This document shows, piece by piece, positions 1 through 24,653 of a DNA stretch of 25,871 nucleotides (the first letter of the stretch is position 1; each line of letters opens with the position of its first letter). The stretch is from a virus, in IMG/VR virus record IMGVR_UViG_3300046517_001519, positions 1 to 25,871 of that record. One strand, given 5' to 3'. A model generated the notes under the pieces. That model was not told the DNA's origin and searched no databases. It saw nothing but the letters and a program-made list of their open reading frames with translations. Position numbers and translations under genes: made by a program.

Positions 1-236
1 GCCGGATCAACGGCGAGGACATTTTGAGCGAGTTCATCGACGCCGGAATCATCACGCGGCCGCTCGAGGGCTCGCCGTTCCTGTTCAAGTACAAGATAGG
101 GGCTCTGCAACGCCTCTATGGCGACTACCTCGGCGTCCCCTTGCATTCTCGCTGGCGGCTCGATATCAACGACGACATGCCCAACGATTATCATTACGGC
201 GATCCGATCACGGCGTGGAAGGGACGCGACAAATGA
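1..236 (+). CDS. Unrecognised phage protein, C-terminal part (5' end cut)
   Basis: The frame is open from the first bases of the window and stops at TGA 234-236, so the gene begins upstream; a TTG at 24 is in frame but nothing shows it is the real start. The visible 78 residues form an ordinary globular-looking sequence rich in Tyr, Asp and Gly, ending WKGRDK. No motif, membrane segment or signal is visible and I do not recognise the family. Its stop overlaps the ATG of the next gene (ATGA), so it belongs to the same transcript as the small exported protein that follows. Confidence 0.6.
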   Translation, partial: RINGEDILSEFIDAGIITRPLEGSPFLFKYKIGALQRLYGDYLGVPLHSRWRLDINDDMPNDYHYGDPITAWKGRDK

Positions 237-523
237 AATCAGCTTGTGCGATCGTTTTGATGGCGCTGGCCGTAACGCCGGCCGAGGCGCACTGCTTCAA
301 GATCTGGCATTATCACACGCCGCAAACGTGCACCCAAGGACGAATCGCGTACAAAGTGTGGCATGTGTCAGCTTTGCCCCAGCGTGTGTCAGCGTCTGTC
401 AACGTTGCTCCGGAACAAAAAGTGATTGTCCCGACGCTCGAAGTTATCGATTGGGGCGAGCCGGGCGATGAGCGATTCAAGGGCATTGTGCTTTTGCGCG
501 CGTTAGGCGATGGTCTGCGGTGA
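233..523 (+). CDS. Small exported protein with Sec signal peptide
   Basis: This is a 96-residue protein. ATG 233 is chosen over an earlier in-frame start because it makes an ATGA overlap with the previous stop and gives a clean signal peptide: a Lys at position 2, a hydrophobic stretch over residues 4-16, and a likely cleavage site after the AEA at residues 17-19. The mature part is about 77 residues, begins HCFKIWHYHTPQTC, and holds two Cys that could form a disulfide. Small periplasmic proteins of this look are common in phages and prophages of Alphaproteobacteria, but the role is unknown. A lysis accessory or envelope-modifying protein would fit; neither is shown. Confidence 0.6.
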   Translation: MKSACAIVLMALAVTPAEAHCFKIWHYHTPQTCTQGRIAYKVWHVSALPQRVSASVNVAPEQKVIVPTLEVIDWGEPGDERFKGIVLLRALGDGLR

Positions 524-5508: not shown

Positions 5509-5674
5509 AGTCTTGGAACAGGTCGAAATCGCGTTCGACGCCCTGGCTGTGCTGCGCAGCAATCTACCGGAGGTATTGTCAGACAGCGCCGCGCTCGCGC
5601 TGGGGCAGGCGTTCGGGGCAATCGCAGTGGCGAGGCTTCTGATCGAGCGCGAGATGACGAAGAGGCCGCACTGA
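5495..5674 (+). CDS. 59-residue helical protein, unrecognised
   Basis: A short gene lies between the MazG-like protein and the helicase. ATG 5495 has GGAG at 5484-5487 with seven bases of spacing, a good ribosome binding site. The stop TGA (5672-5674) overlaps the helicase ATG (TGATG), so the helicase is probably translated by coupling to it. The protein is almost entirely helical and hydrophobic-acidic (LEQVEIAFDALAVL, then ALGQAFGAIAVARLLIERE), ending in a basic tail. The Ala-rich second helix is amphipathic rather than membrane-spanning. The function is unknown. Confidence 0.55.
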   Translation: MELPEVLEQVEIAFDALAVLRSNLPEVLSDSAALALGQAFGAIAVARLLIEREMTKRPH

Positions 5675-7071
5675 TGCAACTCGATCCGGTCCAGGTCGAA
5701 GCGCTGAAGTTCGCCAAAGGCAAGCGCGGCGTCGGTTACTTCATGGAGATGGGCTTGGGAAAAACCCTGACCGCGCTCGAGGAGTTCCGCCGGACGGTCG
5801 AGGCGCGGATCGCCACTCGCATGATCGTCGTGGCGCCAAATTCTTTTAAGGCCGGGTGGGCCGACGAGGTCGAGAAGCATGGCCTCAACTTCGACGTCCA
5901 CGTCTTCGTCTCCGGCGCGAAGGCAAACGAGAAGTGGCTGTCGATCGTCAAATACGAGAAGCCGCCGATCCTGGTCATCAATTACGAGGCGATCCGCGCG
6001 CCGGCGGTTCTCCTGCGCCTCATGGCCTGGATGCGGATCAAGCCGACGACGGTCGTGTTCGATGAGTCGATCCAGATCAAGACGCACGACAGCCAGCAAA
6101 CCAAGGCGGCGCTCGCGCTCGCCCACGAAGCCACGATAGTGCGCTGCCTGACTGGCTTGCCGCAAACGCAGGGGCCGCACGACCTCTACCCGCAGCTGCA
6201 GTCGATCGGCCTGTTCCGCGGCATGAAATTCTGGGCGTTCCGCAACACGTTTTGCCAGATGGGCGGCTGGCAGAACAAGCAAGTCGTCGGGGTTAAGAAC
6301 GCCGAGGATTTGGCCGCGGCGATGGCGCCGTCGGTGTTCCAGGCCAAAAAATCCGACTGGCTTCCGGATCTGCCGCGCAAGGACTATTCGATCCGGACCT
6401 ACGAGATGTCCGGCGAGCAACGGTTTCAGTATCAGCAGATGCACGACGAATTCGTGCTCGAGCTCTCGACCGGAACCGTCGCGGTCGACATCGCAGTGAC
6501 GAAATACGAAAAACTCGCCCAGATTCAGTGCGGATTCATCATCGATGAAGGCCAGGTGGTGCGCGAGCTCGTCCAGCCGACGCAGAATCCGCGGCTAATC
6601 GTCCTGTGGGAGCTTCTCGAACAGGTCACTGGCAAGGCGATCGTGATCTATCGCCACCGGGCGGTGTTCGACCTCCTCTATCTCTTCGGCAACCTGGATG
6701 AGCCGGCCTACATCAAGGGCGGCATGAAGCCCGAGGAGATCGCGGAGCAGAAGGAGCGCTTCAACACCGATCCGGACTGTCGGGTTCTTCTCGGCCAGGC
6801 CGAAGCGACCAAGTACGGCCATACCTTGCTCGGCGGCGAGGACGATCGCGACCATTGCTCGACCATGATTTTCTTCGAGAACAGCTACTCGCTCGACACT
6901 CGGACCCAGGTCGAGGACCGGATCCACCGGCGCGGGCAGCGCGGCGAGAACGTGCTTTACATCGACCTGGCCGGCACCGAGCTCGACCGGCGTGTGGTCC
7001 GCGCGCTGCAGAAGAAGGAAGATCTCTATGACGCGGTGTTTTCTAAGCTGAAGGCAGTCGCACCTGCTTGA
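5674..7071 (+). CDS. SNF2-like superfamily 2 helicase/ATPase
   Basis: This is a 465-residue protein, the size of compact phage SNF2-type helicases. The motifs appear in order: a Q-like N-terminus (DPVQVEAL), Walker A MEMGLGKT (residues 24-31), motif Ia around IVVAPNSFKAGW, motif II VFDESIQIK (DES at 130-132), motif III LTGLPQTQGPHDLYPQL (159-175), and motif VI DRIHRRGQRG (415-424) in the second RecA-like lobe. The motif VI wording, close to DRIHRIGQ, is the SNF2 signature. The protein should translocate on DNA using ATP and likely serves phage replication or recombination. It starts at a TGATG overlap and ends just where the next promoter begins. Confidence in the family is high; the precise role is inferred. 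Confidence 0.9.
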   Translation: MQLDPVQVEALKFAKGKRGVGYFMEMGLGKTLTALEEFRRTVEARIATRMIVVAPNSFKAGWADEVEKHGLNFDVHVFVSGAKANEKWLSIVKYEKPPILVINYEAIRAPAVLLRLMAWMRIKPTTVVFDESIQIKTHDSQQTKAALALAHEATIVRCLTGLPQTQGPHDLYPQLQSIGLFRGMKFWAFRNTFCQMGGWQNKQVVGVKNAEDLAAAMAPSVFQAKKSDWLPDLPRKDYSIRTYEMSGEQRFQYQQMHDEFVLELSTGTVAVDIAVTKYEKLAQIQCGFIIDEGQVVRELVQPTQNPRLIVLWELLEQVTGKAIVIYRHRAVFDLLYLFGNLDEPAYIKGGMKPEEIAEQKERFNTDPDCRVLLGQAEATKYGHTLLGGEDDRDHCSTMIFFENSYSLDTRTQVEDRIHRRGQRGENVLYIDLAGTELDRRVVRALQKKEDLYDAVFSKLKAVAPA

Positions 7072-12663: not shown

Positions 12664-13517
12664 ACGTTCCCCGCCAAACCATTGAAGAACCCCTTGTTAT
12701 TGTAGTTCCCCGCCCCCTGCGTGTTGCCGCCGCCCTGCTGCCAGTTGGCCAGGAACTGCTGCAAGACGTTCGACTGCTGCGACGGCGGCTGAGCTTGCGC
12801 CACGTTAGCGCCTGGCGTCACGACATAGTTGGGTTTCTGCAACGCGCTGATATAGGCCTGGGTCATGTTTGGAGGCGTCGGAGCCGTCGGAGGCGCGGGG
12901 CCAGTGGGCGCGGCGCCGCCGCCCTGCGCCTGCAGCTGCTGGATCTGCATGGCGTTATTGGTCATCATGTCGCGCTGGGCCGCGCTCAGCGGGCCGCTGT
13001 TGCCCGACCCGTAGCCGCCAGCGTTACCCTGCGGATACGCCTGGATGTTTTGGTCCTGCCCCTGAATGTAATTCATCAGGGCGGCGTTGGGATTATTAGC
13101 CATCGCCTGGCCTTCTGGCGAAGCCTGGTAGTTGGCCGTGAGCTCGCTGATCGCCGGCCCCCATTGCCCCAGGGCGTCTTGTTGCGCCTGCGGCAACCCG
13201 CTCGCCGCCGAGCTCCCGCCGGTGTTGTTGATCGTAGTGCCCGGCGTCGAGGAGCCGCCCCCGCCGGCGTTGTAGGCGGCGAGCGCCGCCTGATAGGCCG
13301 CCTGCTGCTGCTGATAGTTCGACTGCGCCGTGGCGTTGGCGTCGACGTAGCTCTGGATCGGCTGACCCATCGCATCGGTCGGAACCTGGTTGCCGTAGGT
13401 GCCGCTCGAATCGATGGTCGAGCCGTACCAGGGCATCCCAACGCCAGCCCACTGGGTGTAGGGGTTCTTCATCTGGCTCGGATCGAACTGCAGCGGATAA
13501 GGAAGATTAGCTGGCAT
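12660..13517 (-). CDS. Gln/Asn/Ala-rich virion protein
   Basis: This is a 285-residue protein, low complexity with many Gln, Asn, Gly and Ala and repeated QQQ segments. It holds a Tyr/Pro-rich start (MPANLPYPLQFDPSQ) and a middle helix (AAYQAALAAYNAGG). The 11-base overlap with the gene before it and the ATGA with the gene after show strict coupling. Such Q/N-rich proteins are often ejected or glue-like virion parts; no domain is recognised. The C-terminus is Gly/Asn-rich (GAGNYNNKGFFNGLAGN). Confidence 0.55.
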   Translation of the reverse strand: MPANLPYPLQFDPSQMKNPYTQWAGVGMPWYGSTIDSSGTYGNQVPTDAMGQPIQSYVDANATAQSNYQQQQAAYQAALAAYNAGGGGSSTPGTTINNTGGSSAASGLPQAQQDALGQWGPAISELTANYQASPEGQAMANNPNAALMNYIQGQDQNIQAYPQGNAGGYGSGNSGPLSAAQRDMMTNNAMQIQQLQAQGGGAAPTGPAPPTAPTPPNMTQAYISALQKPNYVVTPGANVAQAQPPSQQSNVLQQFLANWQQGGGNTQGAGNYNNKGFFNGLAGNV

Positions 13518-15123
13518 AACCGGCTCCTGAGTATCCGTACTCGTCCAGCGTCAGCGGCCGGATCTGCCCCCGGAGGTCCGGAAGGCTGTTTATTGACACG
13601 CCGGGGGCCCACCCGCCGCCAGGTCCGAATCCCTGGCTCTGAGCCCCGTACCCGCCCTGAAGGCCGGCAGCGGCCATCTGTGGGGCCTGGGGAGGGGCCG
13701 CGTTGTAAGTCAAGGGACGCGAGAACGAATTCAGCGTTTGCCCGTAGGTCTGGGGGACGTTCGGCAGCATGGCGCCGCCCATCGGGCTCACATTGCGCGC
13801 CATCGGCGCCGGCATATCCGACAGCGCCGTCCGCTCGGGCCCCGCGGCCTCGACCTTAGCTTGGGTGTTCTTGGTGTTGTTGAGCACCGCCTCCGCGATC
13901 TGCGCCATCGGGGTCGTGGCGCCGGGCGTCGGCTTGCCCGTCGCCGGATCGATCGGCCCCTGGGTGAAGCGGCCGAATAGCGACTGGTTATCGGCGGCGG
14001 CCTGGTTTGCCGCGGCGGGCGTGCCTGGCACGGCGATGTCGTCCCTCGCGCCGCCGGCCGTGACGCCCGCTGGTCGAGAAGCCAGGCTCGGAGCCGAACC
14101 AAGCACTAGGTTGCCGCTGTCGTCCAAGGTCGCGACTTGCGAGCCGCCCTTAATCCGATCCGCCGAATTGTCGACCTTCGGCCGCTCAAATCCGCCCGTC
14201 CAAACCCGCGTCGATTCTTCCGGCGTCTTGGCGGCCTGCAGCGCGCTAAGCACGCCAGGCTGATAGGTCGCGTAGTTCTTGTTGGTGAGTTCGTTGTAGA
14301 GGTGGTCGGCCTGGACGTAAGGATCGCTCCAGGTCTTGTCCTGCGTCTGAGCCAGGTCTTCGAGCGCCTTTCGTCGTTCGCGGTTCCATTGTCCGTAACC
14401 GATCGAGCCGCCGGGATCGTTGGCGTTGTAGGAGCGAGGATCGAGCCCTTTGCCGCCCTCGCCGCCGAGCCCCCAGAGCACGCCGAGCGCCTGGTAGGGC
14501 TTGAGGAGCCCGTTGCTGGTCAGCCGATTGAAGACGATCTGGCGCGGATCGAGCGGCCCTTCGGACGCCGTCTTCCCGCCGCCGGCGTTCGATGCTTCAG
14601 GCCCGGTCTCAGCCAGCGCGCCAGGAGTCGGAGCCCCGCCGCCGATCGTGATCGTGGTGCCGGGGATCGCGAAACCGCCGCCGCCCGCCGGCGCGCTCGC
14701 GTTCATCGCATACGAACTAGGGACGTTCGGGACATCCTTCCACGGCGTCGCCGCTGGCTGAAGGGCTGCCTCCTTCTGCCAGTTCGCCAACTCGACGTGA
14801 TTCGGGTCGCCCGAAATGGTGTTCAATCCCACTTGCGGAGCTAGGCGCTCGAGCTCGGATTGCGGAATCCCCGTCACGTCGCCGCCGAGGCCGTAATTAT
14901 GCGCAGAATAACCGGGCGGCGCCGCCTTCCTCGGGCCGCCTGGCTTGCCCAGCTGGTTGTAAAGATCCTCTTGCGACTGGCCTTTCATCCCCGGCCAGGC
15001 ATAAGCCGCGCGCGTGCCCGAGATGAGCTTAGGAGTGTACCCCTCCTTCTTGGCGAGCGCGATCAGCTGATCCAGCCGGCTGCCGAATTCAGGATCGAAG
15101 CCCGTGTAGACGACATTAGCCAC
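13507..15123 (-). CDS. Bifunctional virion peptidoglycan hydrolase (M15 peptidase plus phage lysozyme)
   Basis: This is a 538-residue protein with two cell-wall domains. Residues 1-115 match peptidase M15 (D-Ala-D-Ala carboxypeptidase/VanY type): SAHNYGLGGD carries the zinc ligands His75 and Asp82 (SxHxxGxxxD), and HVEL supplies His109. Residues 195-320 match the phage tail lysozyme type (Phage_lysozyme2-like): VLWGLGGEGGKGLD with a candidate catalytic Glu222, then SIGYGQWNRERRKAL. The two are joined by a Pro/Gly-rich linker, and a low-complexity C-terminus (340-538) probably serves assembly. The likely role is local opening of the murein during infection, cutting both peptide and glycan. Coupled overlaps on both sides place it in the virion operon. 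Confidence 0.75.
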   Translation of the reverse strand: MANVVYTGFDPEFGSRLDQLIALAKKEGYTPKLISGTRAAYAWPGMKGQSQEDLYNQLGKPGGPRKAAPPGYSAHNYGLGGDVTGIPQSELERLAPQVGLNTISGDPNHVELANWQKEAALQPAATPWKDVPNVPSSYAMNASAPAGGGGFAIPGTTITIGGGAPTPGALAETGPEASNAGGGKTASEGPLDPRQIVFNRLTSNGLLKPYQALGVLWGLGGEGGKGLDPRSYNANDPGGSIGYGQWNRERRKALEDLAQTQDKTWSDPYVQADHLYNELTNKNYATYQPGVLSALQAAKTPEESTRVWTGGFERPKVDNSADRIKGGSQVATLDDSGNLVLGSAPSLASRPAGVTAGGARDDIAVPGTPAAANQAAADNQSLFGRFTQGPIDPATGKPTPGATTPMAQIAEAVLNNTKNTQAKVEAAGPERTALSDMPAPMARNVSPMGGAMLPNVPQTYGQTLNSFSRPLTYNAAPPQAPQMAAAGLQGGYGAQSQGFGPGGGWAPGVSINSLPDLRGQIRPLTLDEYGYSGAGYAS

Positions 15124-16393
15124 TGAGCGCCCCTCGAATCTGAGGCGGCCTCATCCGACGGCGATGCTGGGTTTTCGAGCTTACCGGATGACCCGTCGCC
15201 ATCGCGCCGATCGTGCCGGCCGGCGCCGGTCGAGCCAGCGCGCCGAGCACCGCCGGATGGACGTGGAGCACGCCAGTCGTCGGATGCTTGGCGACCGAGC
15301 CGGGGATTGTCTTCTGCAGATCCTGCGCCATTGGGCCGAGCGACTTCGGAGCGCCAGGAGGTTCGCCCTTCCAGTTGTAGGCGTAGATCGGCGTCTTGGT
15401 TGGCTTGTGCTCGCCGACCTTCTGTAGATTCTTCTTCAAGCGCCGGTCAGACGGTGGCTTGCCGGCGAACACCGAGCCCAGCGCGCCAATGCCCGCGGTC
15501 GCGAGCGAGCCCCAGTCGAACGGCGTCGTGGTCTGAGTCTGGCCGGTCCCAGTGGTCGAGGTGCCGTAGGGCGTCATGCCGAGCGCGCTCTGCAGGATGC
15601 CCATCTGCGTTTGCGGATAATTGACGGCCTGAGTGAACTTCTGCTGGTCGGCGTTGATCTGCGACTGCGCCTGACCCATTTGCTCGGCGCCGGCTTGATT
15701 TTGCATAGTGTAAGCGTTGTTGGCGGCCTGCGCCAAGTCGGTGCCGGTCGAAGCTAAGCCCGAACTCGCCAAGATGTCGGAGTTGATCTTCGCCTGCTGC
15801 GCCGCCTGGTTGTTCTGCTGCGAAGTCAGGTTGTTGCCGATATCGTACTCGGCTCCCTGCACCGCCTGGGTGTAATTGGCCTGATTCAATTGCGCTGCCA
15901 TCTGGGCCATGCCCTGCGCCCCCTGAGCCTGGGTCACGCCTTGCTGAATCGCTTGGCGCGACCCGCCGAAAGCGTTAGCGGAATTCGCCGCGTTCTGCTG
16001 CGCATCCTGGTTTAACCCCAATTGTTGCTGGTAAATTGGCAAGGTCGTGTTGATCACGTCCTGAGTATACGGATTCATGTAAGCAGAAAGATTGGTCCCA
16101 GAGAGCGTCTGCGGCGTTACCGACATCGGCGTCTGGCCAAGCGCGCCTGCGTAGCCGGCCGTCGCAGCGTTGAACTGCGGGATGCCGGCGTTGGCTGACG
16201 TCGCCGCCGTGTTCCAAGCCTGCTGCATCTGCGGCGATACGTCGGGCACCATCTGGCCCTGGTATTGCTGCAGCGGCTGCATCGCGACGTTCTGAGCGAA
16301 AGCGTAGTTTTGTTGCGCCGCGTCATTGATCCACGGCGGCAGCTGTGTCGTCGATTGCTGCTGGGTGTCCTGGGTTGTGGTCGACCCGCCCAT
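15116..16393 (-). CDS. Gln-rich virion protein with C-terminal S74-like segment
   Basis: This is a 425-residue protein starting at ATG 16393, with AAAGGA about eight bases before it; an in-frame start further upstream would overlap the neighbouring gene by 86 bases. Residues 1-300 are Gln/Asn/Ala-rich helices (WINDAAQQNYAFAQNVAMQ, QDAQQNAANSANAFGGSRQ). Residues 315-385 resemble the intramolecular chaperone peptidase S74: SDRRLKKNLQKVG and LGPMAQDLQKTIPGSV match the usual SDRRLKENI and G.IAQE.....P motifs. Typical S74 domains are longer and more complete, so this may be degenerate. A role as an ejection or fibre protein is likely. Confidence 0.65.
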   Translation of the reverse strand: MGGSTTTQDTQQQSTTQLPPWINDAAQQNYAFAQNVAMQPLQQYQGQMVPDVSPQMQQAWNTAATSANAGIPQFNAATAGYAGALGQTPMSVTPQTLSGTNLSAYMNPYTQDVINTTLPIYQQQLGLNQDAQQNAANSANAFGGSRQAIQQGVTQAQGAQGMAQMAAQLNQANYTQAVQGAEYDIGNNLTSQQNNQAAQQAKINSDILASSGLASTGTDLAQAANNAYTMQNQAGAEQMGQAQSQINADQQKFTQAVNYPQTQMGILQSALGMTPYGTSTTGTGQTQTTTPFDWGSLATAGIGALGSVFAGKPPSDRRLKKNLQKVGEHKPTKTPIYAYNWKGEPPGAPKSLGPMAQDLQKTIPGSVAKHPTTGVLHVHPAVLGALARPAPAGTIGAMATGHPVSSKTQHRRRMRPPQIRGALSG

Positions 16394-16394
16394 C

Positions 16395-16754
16395 TCACAA
16401 TTCCTTTGTAAATAGGTAGTTTGACGCCTTGACCTTCCAGCCCAGCGCCGTTCCGAAAGGCTTCCACCCCCGGCGACCATAAGCTGAAACCAGGTCGATG
16501 TTCATCTCGCTGGCGAACTTCACTAGCTTTTCGTCCAAGGCCTGATGGTCGCTTAGATCGCCCACCAGCGCGATGACCTCGAGCACCCGACGCTGCGGGA
16601 AAACCGAGATCTGAGTGATCATCCAGGAATTGTTCTGGACGAATGATTGCATCCGCCCGTCCGCCAGACGCTCAAGGATATCGTGCAGCGTGAACAGATC
16701 GCCCTGGCGCTCGAGCGCGCGGGCGAGCTTGGCGTGATAGAGCGCCGCGGTCAT
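16395..16754 (-). CDS. GNAT-like small phage protein
   Basis: This is a 119-residue protein; it ends one base before the next ATG. The order is an N-terminal helix (TAALYHAKLARALERQGDLF), strands with a hydrophobic core (RRVLEVIALVGD), then a helix and a final segment with GRRGWKPFGTALGWKV. That last pattern (GRRGW followed by a strand) is one I recognise from small GNAT-fold-like phage proteins encoded near tail genes. Acetyltransferase activity is not evident: the usual Q/RxxGxG/A loop is not clear. The function is unknown. Confidence 0.55.
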   Translation of the reverse strand: MTAALYHAKLARALERQGDLFTLHDILERLADGRMQSFVQNNSWMITQISVFPQRRVLEVIALVGDLSDHQALDEKLVKFASEMNIDLVSAYGRRGWKPFGTALGWKVKASNYLFTKEL

Positions 16755-18606: not shown

Positions 18607-19286
18607 TGATATTTGATGATAAAATTTAACCGGACGTAGGGCGGCATATTGTTGTGTGCGCCGCCGCCGCCGGTGTTGGCGTTCGCGACGGTAAGGCCTG
18701 TTGGCGCGGCGTTAGTGTTTCCTCCATATGTGAAAACATTACTCGCGCCCGTACCTTCTGGATAAACAGCGCCAAACTGAAACACATTGGGAATGCCATG
18801 AACGTGACCCGGATCGGTCACGGTAGGCGTATGCGTGTGCGACGGCATCTCAGCGGCGGTTAAAAGATGCGTCGCCTCTCCGCCCGTTTGGCCGATATGA
18901 GTGGTTACATGATCATTGCCGAGCGGGAAGGCGATGGTCAAATCGGGCACGGCATTCGATGTGCCGGGAACACCGCCGAAAGCGTTGTTCAGAATGGGCG
19001 CAAGCAAGGGAATATCGGTGTTGTTGTAAACCGTGCCGTCACAAAGCAGCCAGTTCGCCGGTACGAGTAAATGGCCTCCACCGAACATCTTGATTTCGCC
19101 AATGACGATATTCGGGGCCAAAGCTGAAACCGCAGCCGAAGCAGCGTTCGCCGTGGTTGTCGTCGTGAACAGCTGCGCGTCGATCAGGTCGAGATCGGCG
19201 TTGAGCTTCACGCCCCACGTCGTCGGCGAGCCGCTGATCTCGGGCTTAACCCAATGATAATTCGGGGTGATTGTATCCGCGCACAT
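18603..19286 (-). CDS. Phage tail collar protein
   Basis: This is a 227-residue protein. The N-terminus (NYHWVKPEISGSPTTWGVKL, then LNADLDLIDAQ) is the common start of collar-type tail proteins. GEIKMFGG and NWLLCDG (residues 63-84) match the phage tail collar domain. Residues 135-165 hold GGEATHLLTAAEMPSH and a His-rich stretch (HTHTPTVTDPGHVHG), which in such proteins often holds a metal ion near the trimer axis. The closing MPPYVRLNFIIKY is typical. It lies directly after the tailspike and is likely a fibre tip or adaptor, with receptor contact possible. Confidence 0.8.
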   Translation of the reverse strand: MCADTITPNYHWVKPEISGSPTTWGVKLNADLDLIDAQLFTTTTTANAASAAVSALAPNIVIGEIKMFGGGHLLVPANWLLCDGTVYNNTDIPLLAPILNNAFGGVPGTSNAVPDLTIAFPLGNDHVTTHIGQTGGEATHLLTAAEMPSHTHTPTVTDPGHVHGIPNVFQFGAVYPEGTGASNVFTYGGNTNAAPTGLTVANANTGGGGAHNNMPPYVRLNFIIKYQ

Positions 19287-22093
19287 CAGTGGTATGTCCA
19301 GCTTGTGCCGTCGCAGAAAACAGGCCGCGTCGACGACCCGGCCGCACTCACCGCCGTGCCGTAGCCAGCCGTCCCAACCGCTACACCATTGTTGACGACG
19401 CCGAACCCAACTGTAGTTGCCCGGCAGGCTACCAAGTCAGAAATGTCCGTCACAGCTGCAACCGGGAAACTCGTTCCCGCCGGATCGTTGGCGACCGGCG
19501 CTACGGGACGCCATTGTAGGAACTGAATTGGGGTTCCGCTGGCGCTATTGTAGGTCGAGGCGGCGTTGAGCGTGAGTGTCGTCCCAACGCAAGAGGCAAG
19601 CGTGCCTAGAACCTGATCCAAAAGGATGGGCGGCGCATTGATATTCGAGATTGCTGCAATGTTCGTCCCGGCAGGTAGCGCAGGCGACGGGCAAGCGGCG
19701 ACAGCGACCGAGGTCGTCGTTCCGGCCGTCACGGCGGCGGCAAGCGTCGTCGCAAACGCTTGCGTATTCATCCAGCCCAAATTCTTATTGAGGTCTGGAC
19801 GGGTGTTCAAACGGACATCACCAAATAGGCGCGGCAGGCCAGAGGGCGCGCTGCCATGGTCAAGCAATCGCTCCTGGCCGACGTAATCGCCGGAATTGCC
19901 TATCTCTAGGCCTTGGGGGAAGGAGACGCCTGCGGTATTGAACGCTGGGAAATAGCCGAGATAGTTGTCGCTAAACTGGCGCATCGACACATCACCCTCG
20001 CCTGCCAACGCCCAACTAAAGGCGCTGATTGTGGGCTCCCAACCCAGGCCCATCGTACTAAGCGTACCGCAACCAGCGTAAGAAACCCCGAATATGAACC
20101 ACACACCAGTGGGCGTCAGCGCCGCGCAGTTCTGCCCAGTAGCCCCCCCCTTGAAGCTCCAACCCCCCACCATTTCTCCCGGCCCTATGGTCGGCGTCCC
20201 CGTTGGGAGTGGCCCAGCCTGAAGTCCGACATTTAGCCACGGACTGCCGGGAGTAGGGGGGAAAAACCCTGACGGATTGGCGCAGCCGTTGCTACCGGTG
20301 CCGCCCGCAATATACCCGCCGAGCATTACCGAGTAATTCTGGTTGCCGCAGTTGCCCATGATCGAGTAGTACGCCGATCCGCTCTCGCCACTGTTAGAGT
20401 TGAAATTGACGTCAACCTCGCCCAGCGTCGCGCCGTTAATGAAGTCGGTCATAAAATTGCGAGCGCCCTTCTCGTTGATCGACGACGACGCGCTGGTGTT
20501 GTTGCCCGCCGTCCAGCGACCAATCAGATCGAGTTGATAATAATTCTCTTTGTCATAGCTGCCGGTGCAGTTGAGCCCAGCTCCCGAATTGCAAGCCATC
20601 TGCAATCCGACGGGAAACTGGGTGAAGACGTTGTTGCTGGAGTTCGAAACAATGTCCCGCTTCAGGGCTGCGGGCATGACCCACATCTGGCCTGGCGAGC
20701 CAGAACCATGCGTCATCGAGGCATTCTGACCGGCGTTCAAGAACCCCGTCGCCATCCCCACTGTCTGCGCGCCCAGCGTCCCGCTCACGCCGAGAACCAT
20801 CGTCCCAAACGGGAAAGCGTCGGACCAGATCGCCTCACCCGGCACTAGCAGGCGCGGACCACCCGTCACCAAGACGCTGTTGCTTCCGGCGGTCGTCTGC
20901 ACAGTGAATTTGAGCGCCGCCGGAAGCTGGTGGATGATCAGACTTTGGGTGGAATTGAGAGCGGCGTTGGTCGTGAACCCGGACGCCAGGGTCAAGGTCG
21001 AGCCAGACACTCCACTGACGTAAGCGCCCGGAGGAACCGCAAGCAGCGCCGCCTCTGCCGAGAACCCGGTCAGCCCCGGTACAGCAATAATCCCGTCGCC
21101 GACATGCCATGTCGAAACCGGAATGGTCCCGCCGAAATCGCTGCGCATTGCGACGCTGGTGATTGTCGAGGAACTCGGCGTCGTCGATGCGGTCCCCATG
21201 CCCATTGAAATAATGGTGCAGCCATCGACTGCCCCTTGCCCGTATTGTCCATCAGAAGTGTGCGCGCCGTCTTCCTGGACGACGCCCTGCACGCCTGCGG
21301 CGAATACCAGTTCGACGGCATTAGCGCCCTGACGCCCTGAACCGCAGCGATAACGCGCATTGCGGCTGATGACGAACGAATTGGAGAAGTAATACGGTAC
21401 GTAGTCTTTGTTTATCGCGCCGGGGAACACGACTTCAGGACCGCCGCCGTTTTGGCTGACCGGGCCGAGAGTATTCATCAACGTCGAAAGAAGGGGCGAA
21501 TTGTCCGCGCCGCCGATCTGCATGCCGACTTGCCTCACGTCGATGCCGCCAGAGGTTTGCAAGAGATAACGGCCTGCCACAGATGGGGCTTGGCCAATGG
21601 GCAGGACACAATTGATGCCGTCCGCTGTGACGGGAGCGCCCGAAGTGCCGCCGCAATATGAGGTCAAGTTCCACTGATAAGTGGCCCCGCCGCCGTCGCC
21701 GGGAGCATAGAAGCCCTGCTGAATGACGGTCCATGCCTCAGTCGGCGTCGTAACGTTCGCCACCAAACCAGAGTGGTTGGTGTAGATCGTAAGTTGATTG
21801 GCCGGGTGCGCGCCGCCCGTGACACTGTTGCAGGCCGCCCCTGCGCTGGTCAGGCCCGGCCCCCACTTCACACAATCGTTGGGAGCTATCGCACCGTTCG
21901 TGGCCGGAACGTAAATGTGGGTCGACGGATCGACCGAGCCGAACGGCGTCCAAGCGTTGTCCTGGCCCTTCAGCTTGAAGACGTCGGGCCTTCCCTTGGA
22001 GATGCCGACGTCGGCGGGTGACGGCGCGGTTTGGGCGTAGGCGCAGCTCGTCGCCAATCCCAGGACAAGGCCGAGTAGGACTTTTCGCATCAT
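19286..22093 (-). CDS. Large tailspike/receptor-binding protein with signal-peptide-like N-terminus
   Basis: This is a 935-residue protein. Residues 1-20 look like a Sec signal peptide: basic RK, a hydrophobic VLLGLVLGL core and AYA before Gln. The FYAPGDGGGATYQW segment (residues 128-141) and the Gly/Asn/Thr-rich region after it resemble the entry of pectate-lyase-like beta-helix tailspikes. A depolymerase activity is therefore possible but unproven. The C-terminus (FCDGTSWTYH) fits a trimerising end. The gene contains a G8 tract (20143-20150, - strand) and two further homopolymers nearby. It is coupled on both sides and forms the heart of the receptor cassette. Confidence 0.7.
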   Translation of the reverse strand: MMRKVLLGLVLGLATSCAYAQTAPSPADVGISKGRPDVFKLKGQDNAWTPFGSVDPSTHIYVPATNGAIAPNDCVKWGPGLTSAGAACNSVTGGAHPANQLTIYTNHSGLVANVTTPTEAWTVIQQGFYAPGDGGGATYQWNLTSYCGGTSGAPVTADGINCVLPIGQAPSVAGRYLLQTSGGIDVRQVGMQIGGADNSPLLSTLMNTLGPVSQNGGGPEVVFPGAINKDYVPYYFSNSFVISRNARYRCGSGRQGANAVELVFAAGVQGVVQEDGAHTSDGQYGQGAVDGCTIISMGMGTASTTPSSSTITSVAMRSDFGGTIPVSTWHVGDGIIAVPGLTGFSAEAALLAVPPGAYVSGVSGSTLTLASGFTTNAALNSTQSLIIHQLPAALKFTVQTTAGSNSVLVTGGPRLLVPGEAIWSDAFPFGTMVLGVSGTLGAQTVGMATGFLNAGQNASMTHGSGSPGQMWVMPAALKRDIVSNSSNNVFTQFPVGLQMACNSGAGLNCTGSYDKENYYQLDLIGRWTAGNNTSASSSINEKGARNFMTDFINGATLGEVDVNFNSNSGESGSAYYSIMGNCGNQNYSVMLGGYIAGGTGSNGCANPSGFFPPTPGSPWLNVGLQAGPLPTGTPTIGPGEMVGGWSFKGGATGQNCAALTPTGVWFIFGVSYAGCGTLSTMGLGWEPTISAFSWALAGEGDVSMRQFSDNYLGYFPAFNTAGVSFPQGLEIGNSGDYVGQERLLDHGSAPSGLPRLFGDVRLNTRPDLNKNLGWMNTQAFATTLAAAVTAGTTTSVAVAACPSPALPAGTNIAAISNINAPPILLDQVLGTLASCVGTTLTLNAASTYNSASGTPIQFLQWRPVAPVANDPAGTSFPVAAVTDISDLVACRATTVGFGVVNNGVAVGTAGYGTAVSAAGSSTRPVFCDGTSWTYH
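20143..20266 (-). repeat. Homopolymer tracts in the tailspike gene
   Basis: As read on the + strand: C8 at 20143-20150, C6 at 20163-20168, and G6 plus A5 at 20256-20266. On the coding strand the first two are G8 and G6, encoding parts of VGGWSFKGG. Tracts of eight identical bases can slip during replication, so this part of the receptor-binding gene could vary in frame. Confidence 0.7.
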
Positions 22094-22410
22094 ACCGGCC
22101 CCACGTAGAAGTAGATCGCCACGACATCGTCGCCGGGCGAAACCGAGTATTCCGTACTGAGCCAGTTGATGACGTTGCCCGAAACCGAGAAGTCGGGAGG
22201 TGACGCCGTATTCAAGAACCCGCGCCCATTGACCATGAGCGTGATGGGCGAGGTCGGGCTAGGCCACGGCGTCTGCGACAGCGGCGCGAGCGCATTCACG
22301 TTGGTCACTGAGACAGGCTCAGAAAAAGGCAACAAGGTATCTCCTCCTGGCCCCCCAGCCGAGCACCCATCGACGGGTATCCATAGATTAAAAACGACAA
22401 GACCGCTCAT
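22090..22410 (-). CDS. Small tail-cassette protein, beta-rich
   Basis: This is a 106-residue protein starting at ATG 22410, which makes an ATGA with the stop of the SPRY-like gene. The protein is rich in Ser/Pro/Gly with strands (SGLVVFNLWIPVDGC, ITLMVNGRGFLNTASPPDF, NVINWLSTEYSVSPGDDVV). It looks like a small beta-sandwich, possibly a domain of fibre or a chaperone for the neighbours. There is no signal peptide. The function is unknown. Confidence 0.5.
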   Translation of the reverse strand: MSGLVVFNLWIPVDGCSAGGPGGDTLLPFSEPVSVTNVNALAPLSQTPWPSPTSPITLMVNGRGFLNTASPPDFSVSGNVINWLSTEYSVSPGDDVVAIYFYVGPV

Positions 22411-23138
22411 GGCCCATCCCATGCGGTGAACCCCGCTGGCGCGGCGTAGGTCTGCGAGGCGGCGGTGGCTTTCAGCGTCGTAACATCGCCCACATCGCCA
22501 ATTGAAACAGCCGGAAACAAAGCGCCCACCGTTGCCGGAACAAACGAAATGATCGGGAGCGTTCCTGCCGCCGGATCGCTGCCATTGATCCAAACGCCGT
22601 TAGCAGCCGCCCATATTTTTCCCGCCGTGAAATCAATCGCAAATCCCCAGGTGTAGCCACTGGCCGGGAATAACACCGTCGTATAATTGGATGTAAACCC
22701 AGTAGAAATAACATTTGTACCATACCATACTGAGGCGGCATAAGGAGTGGTAAAACCAACCGCCGTATTTGCAAACCCCAGTTGAGCGTTCGTCCCTGAT
22801 ACATTGAACAAATATTCTACATAATACTTACCGCTATTATGGCTAATCGTTCCCCGAACCATTTTATAAGTGCTATTAGCCGTAATCGTCAGCCCACCAT
22901 TGGAAATTGTGTAATTCCCAGCCGCCGCATCGGTCGCATTCCACGCCGAAACCCCGCCGCCAATGCCGACGAGACAAAGATACCCCTGCGTATCCATCGT
23001 CAGATTCGTCAACGGCCCGGTCGCCAGCGCTTGGCCGCCGCACGAAGCGACGACCGTCGCTGTTGACAGACCCTGCCCCTGCTGCGCCTGCGCGGGCAGG
23101 GCAACCAACAAAAGTAGGATGGCGAGCCAAACCCTCAT
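22407..23138 (-). CDS. Tail protein with signal peptide and SPRY-like domain
   Basis: This is a 243-residue protein starting at ATG 23138 (ATGA with the gene before). Residues 1-18 form a Sec signal peptide (MRVWLAILLLLVALPAQA). Residues 29-56 carry a module shared with the previous gene: CGG...L.NLTMDTQGYLC. Residues 70-243 match a SPRY-like beta-sandwich of phage tail proteins: SGKYYVEYLF, GFAIDFTAGKIWAAANGVWING, and the end APAGFTAWDG. The SPRY part is visibly AT-richer than its surroundings, so it may have come in as a module. The role is a probable adhesin or tail tip; sugar or protein binding is inferred from the fold. Confidence 0.6.
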   Translation of the reverse strand: MRVWLAILLLLVALPAQAQQGQGLSTATVVASCGGQALATGPLTNLTMDTQGYLCLVGIGGGVSAWNATDAAAGNYTISNGGLTITANSTYKMVRGTISHNSGKYYVEYLFNVSGTNAQLGFANTAVGFTTPYAASVWYGTNVISTGFTSNYTTVLFPASGYTWGFAIDFTAGKIWAAANGVWINGSDPAAGTLPIISFVPATVGALFPAVSIGDVGDVTTLKATAASQTYAAPAGFTAWDGP

Positions 23139-23425
23139 TTCTTGGGCTCTGGGAGGGCCGTAGGCGGCTTTGGCGGCTCCGGTGGAGTCCTGGGCTGCAA
23201 AACGCCAGGCGGGGCTTCTAGGGCGGCCGGCAGAGCTTCTCCCACGCCCCCTATCCTGGTCGCCGCCGTCGTCACGCACAGATAACCCGACGTATTCATG
23301 GTCAATTGATGCAATTGTCCAATCGCGGCGGTGTAATTGACCGAGCCGCAGGGGCTGACGACGATCGCTTGGCCGTGCACGGATGTAACAAACAGGGCCG
23401 CCGAAACGAATAAGAGCCATCTCAT
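23135..23425 (-). CDS. Small signal-peptide protein, paralogous to the N-terminus of the next gene
   Basis: This is a 96-residue protein starting at ATG 23425 (TGATG). Residues 1-18 are a Sec signal peptide (MRWLLFVSAALFVTSVHG). Residues 22-52 (VVSPCGSVNYTAAIGQLHQL and then TMNTSGYLCVT) align with the same region of the 22407-23138 protein: both have CG, a short spacer, L-x-x-LTM-x-T-x-GYLC. The two Cys may form a disulfide. The C-terminal 30 residues are Pro-rich (PPEPPKPPTALPEPKK). It looks like an exported small protein made from a duplicated module. The function is unknown. Confidence 0.55.
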   Translation of the reverse strand: MRWLLFVSAALFVTSVHGQAIVVSPCGSVNYTAAIGQLHQLTMNTSGYLCVTTAATRIGGVGEALPAALEAPPGVLQPRTPPEPPKPPTALPEPKK

Positions 23426-24051
23426 CAGCCGAAACTCCTTCTCATCGTCCGCGTCAGCCGCGAGCCACTCGCCTTGGCGTAGGCCCACTCGGCGTTGAGC
23501 TTCGCTATTCCATCCTCGACCAGTTGCTTCGCCATCGCCGCGGACTGCTCCTCGCCAACCGCGTGCATGTACGCGTGCATCATCGCCGCCGAGAGATAGA
23601 GGCTCGGGTACTTGGTGTAGATCCAAGATGGATTCGTATCGGAGAAAACCGGAACCTCGCCGTAGTATGAGATCCTAACTGTCTGGCCGTTGACAGCGTC
23701 CGGCGGGCCGCCGAAGAAAGCCTCACGGCCCTCGATGGTGTAAAAGCCGTTCGACCATTTATCCGGCAGTTTGAAAAACTCGTCGCGCGGCCGGTAATGG
23801 ATCGGATAAAGGCCGCCCGGCACACCGGTGTTGGCGATTTGAACCAAGCTCATCTCGAGCCAGTCGTCGGGTAGCGCAATGCAGCGCCCGTTGATCAGCG
23901 CCTCTTGAGTCTCGATCATCCGGCCGACGCGGAGCTCCTGGTTCAGCTTCTGCTCCGCCATCCGAACGAAAGACGTAACGAGATTATCGCTCCAGTCCTC
24001 GCGATTCTGCCACTCCGCAATCTGAGCTTTGAAGTCCGAGAAGTCGGTCAT
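23425..24051 (-). CDS. Head-tail adaptor protein (SU10 adaptor/gp4-like)
   Basis: This is a 208-residue protein. The N-terminal helix (FSDFKAQIAEWQNREDWSDN, then LVTSFVRMAEQKLNQELRVGRM) and the later WIYTKYPSLYLSAAMMHAYM with a final long helix ending in a basic TRTMRRSFG match the adaptor family typified by the SU10 adaptor. P22 gp4 fills the same role. Such proteins form a ring under the portal and connect it to the tail. It starts by ATGA from the DUF3309-like gene and overlaps the next gene by TGATG. The assignment rests on pattern only, but the motifs are strong. Confidence 0.65.
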   Translation of the reverse strand: MTDFSDFKAQIAEWQNREDWSDNLVTSFVRMAEQKLNQELRVGRMIETQEALINGRCIALPDDWLEMSLVQIANTGVPGGLYPIHYRPRDEFFKLPDKWSNGFYTIEGREAFFGGPPDAVNGQTVRISYYGEVPVFSDTNPSWIYTKYPSLYLSAAMMHAYMHAVGEEQSAAMAKQLVEDGIAKLNAEWAYAKASGSRLTRTMRRSFG

Positions 24052-24230
24052 ACCCGCCCCACGACTGCGAGGATGACGATGATGATCAGAATAATGCCTA
24101 TGATCCCAATGCCGCCGTGGCTGTAGCCGTAGCCATAAGGCCAGGGCGATCCGGGATAGATCGCTGGCCCGATGCCGCCAAGCAGGATCAGAATCAGGAT
24201 GACGACCAGGACCAGACCAAGCGTGCTCAT
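24048..24230 (-). CDS. DUF3309-like small membrane protein
   Basis: This is a 60-residue protein starting at ATG 24230 (ATGA with the neighbour). It has two hydrophobic helices (residues 4-22 and 41-58) on each side of a Gly/Pro/Tyr-rich loop (YPGSPWPYGYGYSHGG). Its overall pattern matches the DUF3309 family, common in Rhizobiales. The role is unknown; in a phage it may affect the envelope or lysis. Confidence 0.6.
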   Translation of the reverse strand: MSTLGLVLVVILILILLGGIGPAIYPGSPWPYGYGYSHGGIGIIGIILIIIVILAVVGRV

Positions 24231-24478
24231 GCGACCCCCAACGGAGTCAGCCCGACGTGTCCAACTACGCCAGCACACTCAGCCAGCCGCCACAGGAATA
24301 GCAAGATCAGGATCGCGACCACGCCGCCGATGACGATCTGAATGATGTTCCAGTAAGGCGCGCTGGTAATGTTCTCAAACCAGCCGCCGAGCAGGACGCG
24401 AAGCAGCGCAAGAACCACCAGGACAACGATGACGAAGATCGCTACCTGAAAGATAGTGCCGATCCCGAATCCGCACAT
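24227..24478 (-). CDS. Two-helix membrane protein, holin candidate
   Basis: This is an 83-residue protein with two membrane helices (residues 9-30 and 46-65) joined by a short loop containing Trp and Asn, and a polar C-terminus. Small two-helix proteins of this type are class II holin-like, though the basic C-terminus usual in holins is weak here. It lies one base after the 57-residue gene and is coupled to the DUF3309-like gene. Lysis function is inferred only. Confidence 0.5.
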   Translation of the reverse strand: MCGFGIGTIFQVAIFVIVVLVVLALLRVLLGGWFENITSAPYWNIIQIVIGGVVAILILLFLWRLAECAGVVGHVGLTPLGVA

Positions 24479-24479
24479 G

Positions 24480-24653
24480 TCATGGCGCCTTTCCGCAATC
24501 GATCAGCATCCGCGTCAGCGTCTGCCGTTCATCTCGCTGCACATTAGCGACCCACAGCAGCGCAAAAATCATCCCGGCGTTGAGAACCACGACGACGAGC
24601 AACAAAGGGGAGGACTTGAGCGCGCCTATCGTCTCAACGCCGAGCTGAGTCAT
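24480..24653 (-). CDS. 57-residue single-pass membrane protein
   Basis: This short gene was found by reading the - strand between the two neighbours. ATG 24653 (TGATG with the previous stop) has GGGAG about six bases upstream. The protein has a short polar start (MTQLGVETIGALKSS), one membrane helix (PLLLVVVVLNAGMIFALLWV) and a polar tail with a Cys (TLTRMLIDCGKAP). The pattern of LKSSPLLL followed by a helix is one I recall from small phage membrane proteins near lysis genes. The role is unknown, possibly a holin partner or spanin-like protein. Confidence 0.55.
   Translation of the reverse strand: MTQLGVETIGALKSSPLLLVVVVLNAGMIFALLWVANVQRDERQTLTRMLIDCGKAP

Follow-up and report, generated by a model that had tools for sequence, protein, structure and literature searches.

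Predicted Sec signal peptides on spike- and fibre-like proteins encoded in the tail operon of uncultured soil phages

The tail locus and its signal peptides

Tail fibres and spikes are regarded as cytoplasmic proteins. The sequence analysed here, a 25,871-base IMG/VR virus record (IMGVR_UViG_3300046517_001519; hereafter the window), contains a tail locus in which three genes, encoding the proteins designated P0002, P0003 and P0004, begin with predicted Sec-type signal peptides (Table 1). An earlier reading made from the letters alone (the sequence-only reading) had described such signals in these three open reading frames, without giving a strand, and in a fourth, small protein, P0001. All four are borne out: the tail-locus frames are present at the coordinates first given, lie on the minus strand and score 4.6 to 6.1 with the predictor described below, while P0001 lies on the plus strand. 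The occurrence of spike- or fibre-like proteins with export signals and signs of disulphide bonding inside the operon for the particle suggests that, in these uncultured soil phages, some parts mature outside the cytoplasm.

Transcription proceeds from a gene for an SU10-type adaptor through those for P0004, P0003, a protein of 106 residues, P0002 and a tail-collar protein to one for a structural protein of 522 residues (phrog_3287 match, E 2.3e-53), located 3' of the tail-collar gene. Throughout this series each gene starts within the stop of the preceding one, with an overlap of 1 or 4 nucleotides. Specifically, the ATG codon shares 1 nucleotide with the preceding stop in P0004 and 4 nucleotides in both P0003 and P0002, from which it follows that the starts of all three are secure and that the genes are translationally coupled. 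A plus-strand reading of the three coordinate ranges is excluded by stops in all three frames. The possibility, raised in the sequence-only reading, that the real starts lie downstream of the hydrophobic segments finds no support, since none of the downstream in-frame starts checked in P0002 and P0003 has a Shine-Dalgarno match. P0004 is preceded by an AGGAG site; the one alternative start with even a partial Shine-Dalgarno match is a GTG codon (residue 61) that lies past the cysteine-pair domain.

Table 1. Features of the tail locus, and P0001, in the window; a slash marks predicted signal peptide cleavage.
Feature	Position	Strand	Basis
Adaptor of the SU10-like, tail tubular A type; reference gene for comparing loci	23425..24051	-	Pfam SU10_adaptor E 7.7e-26; phrog_2941
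P0004, 96 residues, predicted exported; stand-alone Cys-pair domain and proline-rich basic tail	23135..23425	-	predicted signal, domain alignment
P0004 signal peptide, MRWLLFVSAALFVTSVHG/QAI	23372..23425	-	rule-based predictor, signal conservation, gene junction
P0003, 243 residues, predicted exported; Cys-pair domain (CG...LTMDT.G.LC), then SPRY/B30.2-like beta-sandwich (residues 64-242)	22407..23138	-	alignment, model
P0003 signal peptide, MRVWLAILLLLVALPAQA/QQG	23085..23138	-	rule-based predictor, gene junction
106-residue protein without signal (MSGLVVFNLWIPVDGC...), candidate docking partner	22090..22410	-	gene order in relatives
P0002, 935 residues, predicted exported, tailspike-like; conserved N-terminal domain (residues 21-130), variable body, 16 Cys in mature part	19286..22093	-	sequence comparison
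P0002 signal peptide, MMRKVLLGLVLGLATSCAYA/QTA	22034..22093	-	rule-based predictor, conservation, gene junction; loose lipobox match at Cys17
Tail-collar short fibre without signal, next gene after P0002	18603..19286	-	Pfam Collar E 3e-11; tail PHROGs
P0001, 96 residues, small predicted exported early-region protein, 2 Cys, apart from the tail cassette; signal MKSACAIVLMALAVTPAEA/HCF	233..523	+	predicted signal; L124 homologue

Signal peptides were called with a purpose-written, rule-based predictor of Sec signals cleaved by signal peptidase I (SPI), which accepts seven of seven E. coli controls (OmpA, PhoA, MalE, Bla, DsbA, PelB and LamB; scores 4.45-5.46) and rejects two of two cytoplasmic ones (LacZ and RecA). 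Scores of 5.48, 6.13, 4.62 and 5.39 were obtained for P0002, P0003, P0004 and P0001, respectively, each of which displays a basic n-region, an uncharged h-region, small residues at -3 and -1 and a predicted cleavage point at about residues 17-30; the site in P0004 is of the V-x-G form. Signal lengths average 20 residues, with hydrophobic segments spanning 10-14, and a length of about 20 residues is typical of Gram-negative signals. No twin-arginine (Tat) motif is present in P0002, P0003 or P0004; one relative, L004_10, carries the Tat-type motif RRRDIL. With respect to lipoprotein signals, P0002 fits the PS51257 lipobox loosely at Cys17 and fails its strict form, the only match in P0003 (Cys33) falls inside the mature domain, and P0004 has none.

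Distribution of the signal genes among related loci

A search with the adaptor retrieved 79 related viral loci (80 with the window; designated by L numbers), which were annotated with a simple gene caller that had been checked on the window, two genes with misplaced starts being added afterwards. Comparison with homologues in related phages, which had been proposed as a check, reveals that signal-bearing genes recur in 25 of the 80 loci, one to three per locus, in the cassette of up to four genes that follows the SU10-like adaptor gene; two or three are found in 20 loci, and 8 of the loci contain a run of three. At the first to fourth positions after the adaptor, signals are carried by 16/80, 17/67, 8/57 and 10/52 genes (51/256 in total), and they are rare elsewhere. 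Counted by protein family, the proportion is 15/41 in the cassette versus 8/103 elsewhere (p=6.5e-5), and several of the eight families outside the cassette resemble small membrane proteins.

Two mature N-terminal domains recur among these proteins: domain 1 (VVxxCG...LTMDT.G.LC) in P0003, P0004 and others, and domain 2 (P.V..V.D...W.P.GSVD..TH) in P0002 and others, with the same N-terminal domain repeated on consecutive genes. Signal-bearing domain-2 proteins are encoded in L093, L094/L096 and L097, where the neighbouring genes differ. Similarly, L002 has three consecutive signal-bearing genes in another gene neighbourhood (L002:4665-8322); the N-terminal domain of their products is of yet another kind (WTDLGxGP), and one of them carries the SPRY-like domain of P0003. 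A fourth type of small signal-bearing protein (NCS...LQNLDT.E.LW.S), which resembles phage surface decoration proteins, is encoded by the gene after the adaptor in L025, L031, L032 and L033 and upstream in L019, L048 and L092. Separately, two cassette proteins (L055:11575-12747 and L061:12854-13990), situated beside SPI-type proteins, have signals ending AAG/C and, judged by this motif, are probably lipoproteins.

Evidence that the signals are used

Three independent lines of evidence, namely the parity and density of cysteines, the retention of signals that nevertheless diverge, and the coincidence of the cleavage site with a module boundary, strongly support the function of the signals as read from sequence, and with it the option of export advanced in the sequence-only reading. 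Firstly, when one protein per 60%-identity cluster is considered, mature signal-bearing cassette proteins contain 1.71% cysteine; none is free of it, and even counts are seen in 25 of 26. Cassette proteins lacking a signal contain 0.81%, with 22 even and 39 odd counts (22/61) among those that have any cysteine, while proteins without a signal elsewhere contain 0.51% and 100/168 have none. The excess of even counts in signal-bearing over signal-lacking cassette proteins is associated with a Fisher p of 6.6e-8, a value that is optimistic since clusters share domains. Sinorhizobium and Bradyrhizobium plasmids (300 kilobases) served as a positive control: their 23 predicted exported proteins, a few of them counted twice at chunk borders, gave 13 even counts and 1 odd. 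Additionally, the cysteine pair of domain 1 is invariant in 18/18 sequences, and cysteine columns in the P0002 family are gained or lost mostly in pairs.

Secondly, in the P0002 and P0004 families the signal is 40-65% identical between homologues, as against 44-89% for the mature N-terminus, yet every homologue retains a signal, while under neutral change with an equal number of replacements a signal survives in 26-47% of the trials for each pair (the pairs not being independent). The L124 homologue of P0001 likewise has a signal (MLPRSLLALLLIAASAPTEA/HCY) with few residues in common, joined to a nearly identical mature part. Selection would thus appear to act on the presence of a signal and not on its letters.

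Thirdly, domain-2 proteins can be aligned from the predicted +1 glutamine onward, such that the cleavage point is the module boundary. The domain-2 homologue L034_6 (L034:3616-6252) has no signal at all, starting with Met-Gln exactly at the mature residue, and still has 16 cysteines. A frameshift-hidden signal was sought in its other frames and none was found, and a viral scan for its relatives returned only itself, so that the signal-less form rests on one contig; it represents either a natural loss of the signal or the ancestral state. Glutamine occupies +1 in 48/54 cassette proteins, together with a consistent -3/-1 motif, and in 24/26 representatives versus 7/23 of the rhizobial control (p=1.3e-5). 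L034_6 keeps the glutamine without a signal. This residue may be part of the docking domain, may be cyclised to pyroglutamate, or may reflect common descent.

These data bear directly on two alternatives. The first, that the hydrophobic N-terminus stays uncleaved and anchors the protein in a membrane or, as the sequence-only reading had also suggested, in the virion, takes its support from the hydrophobic segments themselves and from the fact that cleavage is a prediction. It is very unlikely, given that a consistent -3/-1 motif precedes the prevalent +1 glutamine, that typical transmembrane anchors are longer than 10-14 residues and that the signal diverges freely; it is also disfavoured by L034_6, which lacks precisely the hydrophobic segment and begins at the mature residue. 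The second holds that the signals are accidental or residual and without function in ordinary cytoplasmic fibres. In its favour, one homologue (L034_6) does without a signal and 16% of shuffled N-termini from the signal-bearing set pass the predictor rule, although at that rate composition alone leaves the signals unexplained; positional clustering, conservation across families and the independent cysteine signature make it extremely improbable. Taken together, the sequence comparisons indicate that the cassette proteins are very probably exported and cleaved.

Nature of the cassette proteins

Identity of P0002 to three close homologues is 83-90% over residues 21-130 and mostly about 28-42% in the body from residue 201 (mostly 29-42% over residues 201-700; 50% in the last part of L007). 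A conserved N-terminus joined to a variable body is usual for a virion-docked spike with an exchangeable receptor-binding part, and for this reason P0002 is considered tailspike-like. One homologue has a weak 'tail spike' PHROG match (E 0.008); P0002 itself has no family match in PDB, Pfam, NCBIfam or PHROG searches, and its matches to MeaB, photosystem and chondroitin entries are weak and fall below the cut-off.

For P0003, a structure model has predicted local distance difference test (pLDDT) scores of about 70-90 over portions of the segment 70-240, and comparison of its C-terminal part with SPRY/B30.2 structures (Foldseek probability 1.00, E about 1e-8, about 20% identity) points to a SPRY/B30.2-like sandwich. 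Versions of this domain without a signal are encoded in tail loci (L031/L032) and close to the adaptor (L068/L070). Further links to fibres are provided by the signal-bearing L013_11, which contains a recurrent fibre segment (consensus like ARKSLGWSHLTHNDITDW) common to many signal-lacking fibres, and by a signal-bearing L096 protein that matches tail-fibre PHROGs (E 1.6e-7 and 1.9e-6). The second signal-bearing protein of L055 matches PDB 7v6m over the N-terminal part of the latter (E 8e-16) and bears a weak similarity to a lacto-N-biosidase. We conclude that, as far as these comparisons allow, the cassette proteins are exported, disulphide-bonded proteins of the tail-spike or fibre type.

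The sequence-only reading had proposed that such proteins act at the envelope, and in this alternative they would mediate superinfection exclusion, mask receptors or serve as lipoprotein-anchored decoys during infection. The signal peptides themselves are compatible with it, P0002 and L061_13 fit the loose lipobox pattern, and the lambda protein Lom, a signal-bearing outer-membrane protein, is encoded between spike and fibre genes (PMC12309495). Nevertheless, action at the envelope is rather improbable and has gained no positive support: the genes lie within the coupled late structural operon instead of being expressed early, or in lysogeny, outside it; they share modules with fibres and occupy the position of fibres in cultured relatives; the SPRY-like domain of P0003 is, in the model, soluble and no outer-membrane barrel; and L022, a homologue of P0002, breaks the lipobox, whose cysteine is missing from domain-2 relatives. 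In addition, a comparison of adaptor and cysteine-domain alignments with 84,980 genomes of bacteria and archaea, able to confirm only fairly close relatives, yielded none that could be confirmed; with no prophage relatives found, such a phage would have little to gain from shielding a cell that stays infected for long.

A proposed mechanism of export and assembly

The preferred explanation begins with synthesis of the cassette proteins late in infection, together with the structural proteins, as would be expected of genes in the same coupled operon. Host Sec would export these spike- and fibre-type proteins, signal peptidase I would trim them at A-x-A/Q or V-x-G/Q, and the periplasm would oxidise them to form disulphides. 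Tailed-phage particles, normally with their tail fibres, form in the cytoplasm, so that exported parts could meet them only at lysis. At that point, folded, disulphide-stabilised spikes and lectin-like accessories would encounter the finished particles and bind them via their conserved N-terminal domains, possibly through the signal-less 106-residue protein, which is encoded directly upstream of a domain-2 protein in several relatives. Attachment at this stage is feasible in that the P22 tailspike joins finished heads in vitro.

Export could also be followed by a different fate, in which the proteins never become part of the virion: they would stay periplasmic up to lysis and thereafter work in free form, degrading or binding polysaccharides and so clearing slime or debris out of the way of the progeny. 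The signal and cysteine evidence suits this alternative as well, the glycosidase-like N-terminal match in L055 is in keeping with it, and in many loci collar or W-P-G-C fibres lacking a signal are still available as receptor-binding proteins. A conserved N-terminal domain on a variable body, and the same N-terminal domain on consecutive proteins, suit docking better than free enzymes, however, and modules are shared with virion fibres; purely free action is therefore possible but, on balance, unlikely. Docking is favoured because the N-terminal domains are conserved and repeatedly used.

Several observations weigh against docking and the explanation built upon it. Many of the loci with signal-bearing genes also encode signal-lacking fibres able to carry out receptor binding by themselves. 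The structure model of P0002 has a pLDDT of 33 and no confident fold, so that its tailspike nature rests on the sequence pattern, and the 106-residue protein shows no profile match to the N-termini of the big signal-lacking fibres, which leaves unsupported the notion that it was split off from them. In cultured phages, no signal-bearing protein was matched in full, and at most short domain matches were obtained. We know of no precedent for exported fibres in tailed phages, and no report of Sec-exported tail fibres in these phages was found in the open full-text literature, a scope outside which most subscription papers fall and which makes this weak evidence of absence.

With these points considered, attachment of the cassette proteins to the virion at lysis is the preferred, though unproven, reading of the sequence data and may be given about an even chance. 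The explanation as a whole, comprising export, trimming, oxidation and subsequent docking onto particles, appears no more apt to be wrong than right. More tentatively, and with the balance tilted slightly against it, this lineage might divide virion assembly between compartments: heads and tails would be built under the reducing conditions of the cytoplasm, while spikes and lectin-like fibres would leave it through Sec, become oxidised once in the periplasm and be added at lysis, the module composed of signal and docking domain being traded among unrelated soil phages.

Other genes of the window

Immediately 5' of the adaptor, three small adjoining minus-strand genes (24480-24653, 24227-24478 and 24048-24230) encode strongly hydrophobic membrane proteins, possibly holins or proteins with other lysis functions; close look-alikes of this trio (24048-24653) occur in the related loci L092, L095, L097, L102 and L105. 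Also on the minus strand are genes for a tail lysozyme (Phage_lysozyme2; 13507-15123), the start of which weakly matches VanY, and for a protein with an endosialidase-chaperone domain (Peptidase_S74) and a DNA-ejection PHROG match (15116-16480). In the early region, the plus-strand gene at 5674-7071 encodes a 465-residue protein with a helicase-like MGLGKT motif.

Significance and comparison with known systems

If receptor-binding parts are indeed exported and disulphide-bonded, assembly of tailed phages would not be confined to the cytoplasm, the stability of fibres in soil would have a simple chemical reason, and depolymerases or lectins of this type would have to be expressed in a periplasmic or oxidising host. 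In addition, a signal peptide together with an even cysteine count offers a sequence test for finding such proteins in other phages.

Among cultured phages, the gene order of the tail locus of the window recurs in phiM5, a phage of Sinorhizobium, and in OH, a phage of Ochrobactrum, and in phiM5 proteins encoded right after the adaptor, including a tail fibre, are annotated as detected in particles. By analogy, the host of the phage described here may belong to the Rhizobiales. The cassette proteins resemble the spikes and fibres of podophages (P22-type; phiM5 and OH) in their position after the adaptor and within the same operon, in the combination of a conserved N-terminus with a variable body, and in modules held in common with signal-lacking fibres. 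They differ in their predicted Sec signals and paired cysteines, whereas the annotated tail proteins of phiM5 and OH that were tested have no signal peptide and few cysteines. SPRY/B30.2 is pertinent as the fold of the C-terminal domain of P0003, and the functions of eukaryotic SPRY proteins are not transferable to it.

Sec signal peptides are known on virion proteins of filamentous phages, namely pIII and pVIII. The hijacking of host secretion is described in one account (PMC4823517). Filamentous phages assemble at the inner membrane without lysis, whereas the adaptor-type tailed phage considered here would need an assembly step at or after lysis. Lom of lambda, encoded between spike and fibre genes (PMC12309495), is an outer-membrane beta-barrel expressed in lysogeny, in contrast to the SPRY-like domain and spike-like proteins found here, for which no prophage relatives were found in the genomes searched. 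A further parallel is provided by PblA and PblB, two tail-type proteins of phage SM1 from Streptococcus mitis that occur outside its particle; PblB becomes surface-bound via lysis and is not known to have a signal peptide; the likeness to the cassette proteins lies in the occurrence of tail-type proteins outside the particle, and the difference in the signal-less, lysis-dependent route of PblB. Assembly split between compartments would, if shown, be categorically new, its known neighbours being Lom of lambda and the coat proteins of the filamentous phages.

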